A DNA stretch of 64,000 bases, from contig JAADGJ010000035.1 in the NCBI GenBank assembly GCA_013152435.1, positions 1-64,000 of the forward strand, given 5' to 3'. The notes under the pieces are model-generated. The model searched no databases and had not been told where the DNA came from. It worked only from the letters and a program-made list of their open reading frames with translations. Positions within the stretch are counted from its first letter, which is position 1; every line of letters starts with the position of its first letter. The position numbers and the translations under genes are program-made. Origin of the DNA: Chloroflexota bacterium. Lineage in GTDB: Bacteria; Chloroflexota; Anaerolineae; DUEN01. Positions 13,047 through 15,383 of this stretch are shown in pieces.

Positions 13047-14285
13047 CTACGGCGTAATCGTCACCGCCATGTCCAAAGGCGTCACCTGCCACCAGCTGTT
13101 CCCCGGCTTCAGCGGGATATCCCGCCCGGCCGCGTCCACGAAACGGAACGGTGCGTGGCGCTCCGGCCGGGTCCACATACCCTCGTACACCCGGCCATCC
13201 CGGAGGATCTTCAACGGCCCCTGCCCCCAAAGCTGGACCTCAATGGAGCGGTTGATGCCGATATCCTCCGTGCCATGCTCCAGGATCAGCGTCTGCACGT
13301 GATTGGCCCCCAGGATGACCACATCAGCGGCGGTAAGCTGCCGCCCATCCAGCGCCTCCACGTGGGGCTGCCCGGCCACGAACCGCTTCCACAGCCCGGT
13401 CGCCTCATCGTAGACCCAGGTCACCACGCCATCCGGGTAGTCGAGATCCACCCGGCTGGCCGGCGCCCCGCCCTCCGGAGGCTTCTCGGAGAAGACCCAG
13501 GAGGCGGTCGGATCAGGCCGGTGGTTCCATCCACGCTCCGTAATCGCCCGCCAGAGGGCCTCGGTGCTCGCGAACAGGTTGTGCGGCATCGGAATGCTGG
13601 GATCCCGGAAATACGCCGACCCGTTCAGGGCCTGCTCCAGCAGCTGGCCGCCGATATCGGAATTATAGAGCCGCTCACGCACCGGCTGCACCGCGCCCGA
13701 GAAGCACAGCACCGCGTCGAAGATGACCGGCAGTTCCACGTCGATCAGACGGGCGCTGCGGATGGAGCCCACCCGCTCGGCATCCTGGCTCTGATAGATC
13801 ACCGTAAAACGGGTGAGATTGAACTCGATCCGGCTCTCCACCACGACATCCGCCTTGCTCAGCCCCGACTGCGGGCGCACGTTGGCGGTGTTGGCCACCT
13901 TAATCGCCAACGGCCGTCGCTCCAACACCGCCGGATCAGCCGGGCGCAGGCCGGTGAACGGGGACACGCTCGGATCGTCTCTGGGAACGATCAGGACGAC
14001 GTCCGGCGTGGCCGTGGGCGTCGCAGTCGGCGTCGGCGTGGGCACAGGCGTGTCCGTTGGCGGGATGGGCGTCGGCGTGTTGACCTGCGCCGTGGGCCTC
14101 GGCGTCTTGGTGGGCGTCGGCGTGGGCGTCGGCCGCCGTCCCTTGCATCCGACCGCCGTCAACAGCACCAGCGCCAACGCCAGACACAACAGGATCGGTC
14201 GAGATCTCCCTATCGTCCCCGAGCCACCGCCATCACACGCAGATGATCCGGCGCGGCCCTTGCGTTGCGTTCCCAAAGCAGACAT
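13047..14285 (-). CDS. DUF3048 family lipoprotein
   Basis: This 412-residue protein has an N-terminal hydrophobic segment (ILLCLALALVLL) ending in the lipobox LTAVGC, so Cys47 would be lipidated. A Thr-Pro repeat linker of about 45 residues follows, then a DUF3048 domain (YerB-like). Its characteristic segments are SPFTGLRP, RPLAIKVANTANVRPQSGLSKAD, RVGSIRSARLIDVEL and WNHRPD-type motifs. The function of DUF3048 proteins is not established; they are extracytoplasmic. The gene begins 31 bases after the aroD stop and is probably co-transcribed with it. AGGAGG lies about 13 bases before ATG 14285, slightly far. Confidence 0.88.
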   Translation of the reverse strand: MSALGTQRKGRAGSSACDGGGSGTIGRSRPILLCLALALVLLTAVGCKGRRPTPTPTPTKTPRPTAQVNTPTPIPPTDTPVPTPTPTATPTATPDVVLIVPRDDPSVSPFTGLRPADPAVLERRPLAIKVANTANVRPQSGLSKADVVVESRIEFNLTRFTVIYQSQDAERVGSIRSARLIDVELPVIFDAVLCFSGAVQPVRERLYNSDIGGQLLEQALNGSAYFRDPSIPMPHNLFASTEALWRAITERGWNHRPDPTASWVFSEKPPEGGAPASRVDLDYPDGVVTWVYDEATGLWKRFVAGQPHVEALDGRQLTAADVVILGANHVQTLILEHGTEDIGINRSIEVQLWGQGPLKILRDGRVYEGMWTRPERHAPFRFVDAAGRDIPLKPGNSWWQVTPLDMAVTITP

Positions 14286-14316: not shown

Positions 14317-15339
14317 TCACGAGCGAATTCGCTCGATCCACCAACGCACCCAGGCATGCACATCCCCATCCAGATGGTGGCCCTCCCAACGGCCATCGGC
14401 CCGACGCGCCAGGATATTCACCCGCCCCGCTTGGCGCGCCGCCTCGGTGAGATGGGATACCTGCAGGGCCATCGCCCCCGCGAGGGAGGCATCCACACTG
14501 CACCCCACCAAGTCCAACGCATCCAATCCGGCAAGTGTTCCCGCGTCCACCCGGAGGGCGATCAGGGGCACCCAGACGGCGTTGAGCCTCGCGTCGCGCA
14601 GGGCGGCATTGCCGGACGCCATCACCGCCCGCGGCGGAAGCTCGGGCACCAGATGTCCGAAAGCGAGCGTCTCGGCGCCGATCTCACGAACCCGGTAGAT
14701 CTCGTGCAGGTCGGCCACCGCGATCTGGCCCGGCGCCACCCGCTGCGCATCCCCCCCCAACGTTGCGTAGGTCAGGTAGCAGGAGGGATAGCGCAGCGCC
14801 AGGACCCGACTGGCCATCCCCGCCGCGTCCATGGCGATGGCGATGGTGGGACAATCGGCCTCCCGCCAGACCCGCATCACGGGCGCCAGATCGGCCACCT
14901 CACGGGCCATACCCACCAGCTTGACCACGTCCGCCCCCAGCCCCGCCAGCGAGCGATAACGATCCACCAGATCGTCCGGCATCCGGTCGAAATCATGCCG
15001 CGAGATGATCAGCCGGGTCCGGGGCCGCTCCGCGTCCGCCAGGAGATGCACCGCGTCCCACTCGATATCCACGTGCTCAGCCCCCAACTCGATCGCCTGG
15101 AGAAGCGGGCGCACACGCAGGAGCTCCTCCCCCTGGAACCGCCCTCCCTCCCGCACAGGGCGATGGGTGATCACCACCGGGCAAGGGCGATGTCGCAGAA
15201 GGGTCGGCAGGTCATACTCATCCATGAGGTCCAGGCGAATCTCCGCCACGTCGGCCACTCGGGCCACCTGATCCATTAGCCGCAACATCTCATCGGTGTG
15301 GGCCGCCCCCAAGGACACGGCGATCAACGGTCGCGACAT
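14317..15339 (-). CDS. aroD: Type I 3-dehydroquinate dehydratase with vestigial shikimate dehydrogenase domain
   Basis: Residues 1-213 form a complete type I DHQ dehydratase of the shikimate pathway. Visible are EIRLDL (Glu33, Arg35), THRPVREGG, DIEW (Glu93), SRHDF (His115), DVVKLVG (Schiff-base Lys140), GMASR (Arg178) and APGQ (202-205). Residues 215-340 resemble only the substrate-binding half of shikimate dehydrogenase: IYRVREIG, LNAVWVPL, and GRVNILARRADGRWEG followed by HLDG instead of NTDG. The NADP domain is absent. Residues 215-340 contain no lysine, so the AroE catalytic Lys is missing. This is therefore probably a degenerated AroD-AroE fusion. The start at 15339 has AAAGGAAAGCGT before it. 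A good promoter lies at 15384-15412. Confidence 0.9.
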   Translation of the reverse strand: MSRPLIAVSLGAAHTDEMLRLMDQVARVADVAEIRLDLMDEYDLPTLLRHRPCPVVITHRPVREGGRFQGEELLRVRPLLQAIELGAEHVDIEWDAVHLLADAERPRTRLIISRHDFDRMPDDLVDRYRSLAGLGADVVKLVGMAREVADLAPVMRVWREADCPTIAIAMDAAGMASRVLALRYPSCYLTYATLGGDAQRVAPGQIAVADLHEIYRVREIGAETLAFGHLVPELPPRAVMASGNAALRDARLNAVWVPLIALRVDAGTLAGLDALDLVGCSVDASLAGAMALQVSHLTEAARQAGRVNILARRADGRWEGHHLDGDVHAWVRWWIERIRS

Positions 15340-15383
15340 ACGCTTTCCTTTCATGTGAGACGATCTCTCCAACGGGCCAAGCG

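Follow-up and report, generated by a model that had tools for sequence, protein, structure and literature searches.

Half of a shikimate dehydrogenase, apparently without catalytic function, is retained on a type I dehydroquinate dehydratase of Chloroflexota

The aroD gene analyzed here encodes a type I dehydroquinate dehydratase (DHQase), an essential enzyme of aromatic biosynthesis, that is followed by a degenerate half of shikimate dehydrogenase (AroE), which acts next in the pathway. It lies in the window, a stretch of 64,000 nucleotides from contig JAADGJ010000035.1 of a Chloroflexota bacterium (assembly GCA_013152435.1). We consider it rather likely that a fused AroE was redundant beside a standalone aroE, that its NADP-binding domain was excised and that the dead half has been retained as a structural partner of AroD. 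No description of a half-AroE fusion was found in the open-access literature that we searched. The relatives form a series that runs from a full two-enzyme fusion through a half-fusion to a shrunken remnant. A second case is independent of this series, which ties the loss of the domain to a standalone copy being present. A general question thus becomes open to testing, namely why part of a dead enzyme persists once the fusion has become redundant.

Results

The gene is an uninterrupted open reading frame at positions 14317-15339 on the minus strand and codes for 340 amino acids from an ATG at 15339. The protein begins with MSRPL and relatives use the same methionine; possible alternative in-frame starts lie upstream at 15354 and 15372. 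Residues 1-214 (14698-15339, minus strand) make up the dehydratase domain, which the sequence-only reading had judged intact. This is borne out by the match to PF01487 (E 1.7e-41, 143 bits, cut-off 22.2) and by the conservation of E33, R35, R60, E93, H115, the Schiff-base lysine K140, R178 and Q205. The active-site residues K140, H115, E93, R178 and Q205 are invariant in our alignments A1 and A2. Residue 201 (14737-14739), before the APGQ motif, is a valine where many type I DHQases have a serine; valine also stands here in the full fusions of family f25, and threonine in others. A search of the organism's own genome, whose assembly is about 96% complete, found this single AroD and no type II dehydratase (AroQ), which makes it very probable that the cell has no other DHQase. 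Within the protein Pfam finds DHquinase_I only, so that domain annotation overlooks the additional half-AroE domain.

The next gene downstream, at 13047-14285 on the minus strand, encodes a DUF3048 protein, starts 31 bp after the aroD stop and stands outside the mechanism discussed here. The order aroD then DUF3048 recurs in two relatives (L050 and L006), which suggests a conserved gene pair. L050 is the gene of genome G001 and comes from 'Caldilineae bacterium isolate J4' (Chloroflexota), the named relative nearest to the window organism and a member of its genus. No regulator genes were seen among the immediate neighbors of the window aroD.

The fusion joint YRVREIGAETLAFG at residues 215-228 (14656-14697, minus strand) has the pattern YRxxxIxxxTxxYG that is common to full AroD-AroE fusions. 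The degenerate AroE substrate-binding domain takes up residues 225-326 (14362-14667, minus strand), as delimited by HMM and PDB alignments, AlphaFold2, Foldseek and motif comparison. Residues 215-340 had been assigned to the substrate-binding half of AroE from the letters alone, and several profiles agree with this assignment. NF001314, the NCBIfam model of shikimate dehydrogenase, matches the segment at 3.8e-5. PRK09310, a model of bifunctional AroD-AroE, can be aligned with P0001 up to residue 337, and the Arabidopsis DHQ-SDH structure (PDB 2gpt) as far as the NTD position. We also built an AroE HMM of our own from 54 AroEs, fused and standalone; it gives the tail an E-value of 5.4e-7, and among 1000 shuffled versions of the tail none does better than 0.054. 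In the Pfam profile search PF08501 stays below threshold in the window protein and is above it in the homologue from genome G028 (29.4 bits, cut-off 27). The tail gave no match to plasmids, and comparison with a viral fold library yielded nothing of note.

AlphaFold2, run with an input alignment of 14 natural sequences that included full fusions, predicts the window protein with a pLDDT of 94.9 and a pTM of 0.92. The top four PDB matches of this model in Foldseek are DHQ-SDH entries (TM 0.84-0.86, rmsd 2.4-2.6, 335-340 columns), and AROM ranks well below them. The whole-chain match to 2gpt places an AroE substrate-binding fold in the window protein; structure prediction, which had been suggested as a check, thus speaks for an AroE-like fold and rules out an unrelated one. 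The packing of the two domains in the model is consistent with this picture and not independent evidence for it, since AlphaFold2 saw full fusions in its input and probably 2gpt in training. For a shrunken protein of family f21, too, the prediction is a compact beta/alpha tail placed as in DHQ-SDH (pLDDT 90.7, TM 0.83).

The catalytic pair of AroE is Lys65 and Asp102, and its HSxSP motif forms a loop. In the window protein HSxSP is lost and the position of K65 is taken by A287 (14479-14481, minus strand). The NTD motif reads HLD, in which D324 (14368-14370, minus strand) is the sole surviving residue; the other three family members are without even D324. The NADP-binding Rossmann domain (PF01488, GAGG) is absent from the protein, and downstream there is no room for it, since the gap to the following gene is 31 bp. 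The NADP-binding half of AroE is missing, then, and the protein is not a complete bifunctional DHQ-SDH. The degraded loop, the HLD and the absent NADP half had all been noticed in the sequence-only reading and hold up well, and these losses strongly support the prediction that the half-AroE is catalytically dead. The absence of lysine from the tail, noticed at the same time, is true as well but weak evidence. We rejected it as a sign of death because it is a matter of composition: the AroD domain has a single lysine, and the tails of some relatives do contain lysines.

It is hardly credible that an artefact of assembly or sequencing masks an in-frame, intact AroE. The AroD plus half-AroE architecture is shared by four genomes of the family at 64-72% identity, which is not what a sequencing error would produce, and the same architecture is found across Chloroflexota. 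The short distance to the next gene and the presence of a separate aroE also refute this explanation. An in-frame NADP domain hidden by a sequencing error, which had been named as a possible refutation, finds no counterpart in relatives, where full fusions are distant separate lineages and not frameshift variants.

PF01487 was detected in 35 of the 396 genomes of the class. In Chloroflexota the AroD-AroE fusion is full in family f25 (L009, L021 and L024), where VTIPHK, NTD and GAGG are all present, and outside this phylum the loci of Planctomycetota and Woesearchaeota are full fusions, apart from the paralogues treated below. Full-fusion relatives, which it had been proposed to look for, thus exist. 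The half form is present in f1, the window family with its 4 genomes, and in f26, and also in other Chloroflexota (f85, f96, f108, f118, f123 and L052); the tails of f15, f17 and f21 are shorter and more diverged. As judged from these sequences the half form is widespread in Chloroflexota, which refines the original observation.

In AroD-domain trees the half and shrunken forms fall into one group (SH-aLRT 94; bootstrap/SH-aLRT 89/84 in a second tree) that is nested within full-fusion lineages (99/93), and single-domain AroDs lie outside this Chloroflexota clade. The AroE tree has one clade of fused AroEs (SH-aLRT 98), with the standalone aroEs of half carriers outside it and grouped by host family. 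Most half tails are better matched by HMMs of fused AroEs than by those of standalone AroEs, whereas the tails of the window protein (L003) and of L005 slightly favor the Anaerolineae standalone HMM over the fused one. The AroD trees, the joint motif and the preference of most tails for the fused-AroE HMM strongly support the view that the window gene descends from a full AroD-AroE fusion, and the description of the tail as a fusion relic is further supported by the fold, the separate aroE and the full-fusion relatives. The half-fusion L149 (G551, f114) is not firmly placed; it sits near the planctomycete full fusion L058 on a long branch and may represent a further independent loss of the NADP domain. 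Another set, L150-L154 (from G579, G502, G625, G682 and G595), comprises second, divergent PF01487 proteins with frames of about 290-490 amino acids, for which the DHQase profile matches in its later part only.

A separate aroE had been proposed as a further check, and the organism's own genome indeed holds one intact copy, on another contig. Separate aroE genes were found in 41 of the 43 genomes with half or shrunken forms that were checked and in 0 of 9 full-fusion genomes, which have the fused AroE only; phylogenetically, the genomes behind these counts are not independent of one another. Both half or shrunken carriers in which no separate copy turned up, G159 and G636, have fragmented assemblies. 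That redundancy with a standalone aroE permitted the loss of the NADP domain is well supported. One might also imagine that the half-domain serves for docking, recruiting the separate AroE or another partner and so preserving substrate hand-over after the fusion was split. Half carriers do retain a separate AroE, which must take the product of AroD, but with the separate aroE located on another contig we regard docking as very unlikely.

The substrate-binding domain of AroE is not continuous in sequence but consists of an N-terminal part and a C-terminal helix with the Rossmann domain between them. L137 matches the AroE HMM in two blocks, 4-98 and 249-268, that are adjacent in the protein. Here the AroE C-terminal helix, QFALWTGREAP, comes straight after the substrate-binding part, and the last 37 residues match Pfam SDH_C with an E-value of 1.1e-4. 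An HMM of the C-terminal helix gives 21 bits for L137 against 6.7 for the best shuffle. In L052, L005 and L122 it stays weakly above every one of the 50 shuffles, the match in L005 being off-register, and a QFxLWTG helix is seen in L137 and L052. The score of the window tail is within chance, 11 of 50 shuffles being as good. The excision signature is clear in L137 alone and weak in L052 and L122. The final helix of the window protein, VHAWVRWWIERIR at residues 327-339 (14323-14361, minus strand; AlphaFold2 secondary structure), would correspond in position to the C-terminal helix of AroE. By eye, the window end GHHLDGDVHAWVRWW can be aligned ungapped with GAWVETPAEQFALWT of L137, and the final helix was aligned without gaps to L142 as well. 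A simple truncation after NTD was rejected, because the AroE segment that follows NTD matches no tail and the C-terminal helix matches L137. Most likely the NADP domain was excised internally and the AroE C-terminal helix was left behind, an event that is shown in relatives only; for the window's own lineage we infer it from position.

We then have to ask whether the tail is kept for a reason. It might be a passive relic without a role that decays neutrally and is kept only because a stop codon would bare a misfolded end. The catalytic motifs are all lost, in most pairs the tail changes more quickly than AroD, and it is shortened in f15, f17, f21, f82 and f97; given this pace and this shrinkage in many lineages, constraint on the tail is partial. 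Against neutral decay stand the substitution rates. In the window family dN/dS (Nei-Gojobori) is 0.12-0.18 for AroD and 0.20-0.29 for the tail, and outside this family the tail values lie between 0.19 and 0.53, the highest being in f21, with every pair below 1; the values are approximate, since dS exceeds 1 for several pairs and is near saturation for some. In addition, all 50 Chloroflexota sequences examined have tails of at least 65 residues, the core beta-strand proline (P258 in the second strand of the tail, 14566-14568, minus strand) is kept in 49 of these 50, and the tail is predicted to be well folded, the shrunken form included. Purifying selection on the half-domain is strongly supported by these comparisons, and we consider a passive relic unlikely.

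A half-fusion arose a second time in Planctomycetota, as far as sequence comparison can tell. PF01487 is present in 247 of 294 genomes of the Planctomycetota sample, and most of the listed frames have at least 485 amino acids. Four half-form paralogues (L242-L245), with AroE matches of 5e-10 to 7e-6 in their tails, form a separate clade beside a planctomycete full fusion (100/98), and their genomes also hold a second, full-length frame. The short frame of another planctomycete locus, L246, was rejected as a half form, being a contig-edge fragment of a full fusion. In L242 (1-2800, G1016) and L243 (1-2901, G997) the AroD motifs are partly lost (APGQ region; MGExG region), and L242 is also without the SR arginine. 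These two proteins may be pseudoenzymes throughout and are candidate pseudoenzyme regulators.

Such proteins bring up the idea of a ligand-sensing or allosteric domain, in which the fold would still bind a shikimate-like metabolite and regulate AroD, comparable to the fungal repressors of the QutR/GaaX type. The substrate-binding fold is retained, AROM-related repressors provide a precedent (PMC10512348), and L242 and L243 coexist with a full-length AroD frame while having lost some AroD motifs. However, HSxSP, K65 and mostly D102 are lost with no obvious new conserved polar site in their place, and neither a transcription-factor partner nor a DNA-binding domain was seen. Sensing seems quite unlikely to us.

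Discussion

We propose that an ancestral AroD-AroE fusion of the DHQ-SDH type arose in or entered Chloroflexota beside a standalone aroE. Once AroE was present twice, one of the copies would have been dispensable. In f25 the fused AroE is the one found today; in most others, the window lineage included, the standalone copy would have stayed. From the fused copy the NADP-binding Rossmann domain would then have been cut out, leaving the substrate-binding half on AroD, probably together with the C-terminal helix. After the excision the catalytic residues would have decayed, and the beta/alpha core may have been retained because AroD had adapted to the half-domain. This order of events we infer. 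The dead half would pack on the AroD barrel as in DHQ-SDH and most likely aid folding, stability or quaternary structure of this dehydratase; taken by itself such a structural role has about even odds, which makes it likelier than a neutral relic, ligand sensing or docking. More tentatively, and somewhat short of an even balance, the tail could be a widespread pseudo-domain that healed into a continuous fold after the Rossmann domain was excised and on which AroD of Chloroflexota came to depend obligately, for structure or for allostery, with a separate loss in the Planctomycetota paralogue, where AroD is partly degraded in two members and might act as a sensor or regulator.

Full AroD-AroE fusions are known from Planctomycetes, Acidobacteria and some archaea (PMC11237513). 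Plant DHQ-SDH (PDB 2gpt, 6bmb and 2o7q) shares with the window protein the domain order, the joint motif, the AroD barrel and the AroE substrate-binding fold, as well as the predicted relative placement of the two domains. In contrast to DHQ-SDH the window protein is without the NADP-binding domain, the catalytic lysine and HSxSP, and the separate AroE presumably carries out the reaction. The f25 full fusions are closer, with a related AroD lineage and a fused AroE in the same phylum and class, but their AroE is intact (GAGG, VTIPHK, NTD) and a separate aroE was not found in f25. The single-domain type I DHQase of S. typhi (AroD, 1qfe) has the same catalytic barrel and residues and, unlike the window protein, no C-terminal domain. 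In the AROM-related repressors of fungi, shikimate-pathway domains are retained in another role (PMC10512348). Fungal AROM and the repressors QutR, GaaX and TanX resemble the present case in that such domains outlive their catalytic role after fusion. The similarity does not extend to the repressors' domain set of shikimate kinase (SK), DHQase and SDH, since no shikimate kinase domain is found in the window protein. There, in distinction to the repressors, the AroD active site is intact and only half of AroE is left.
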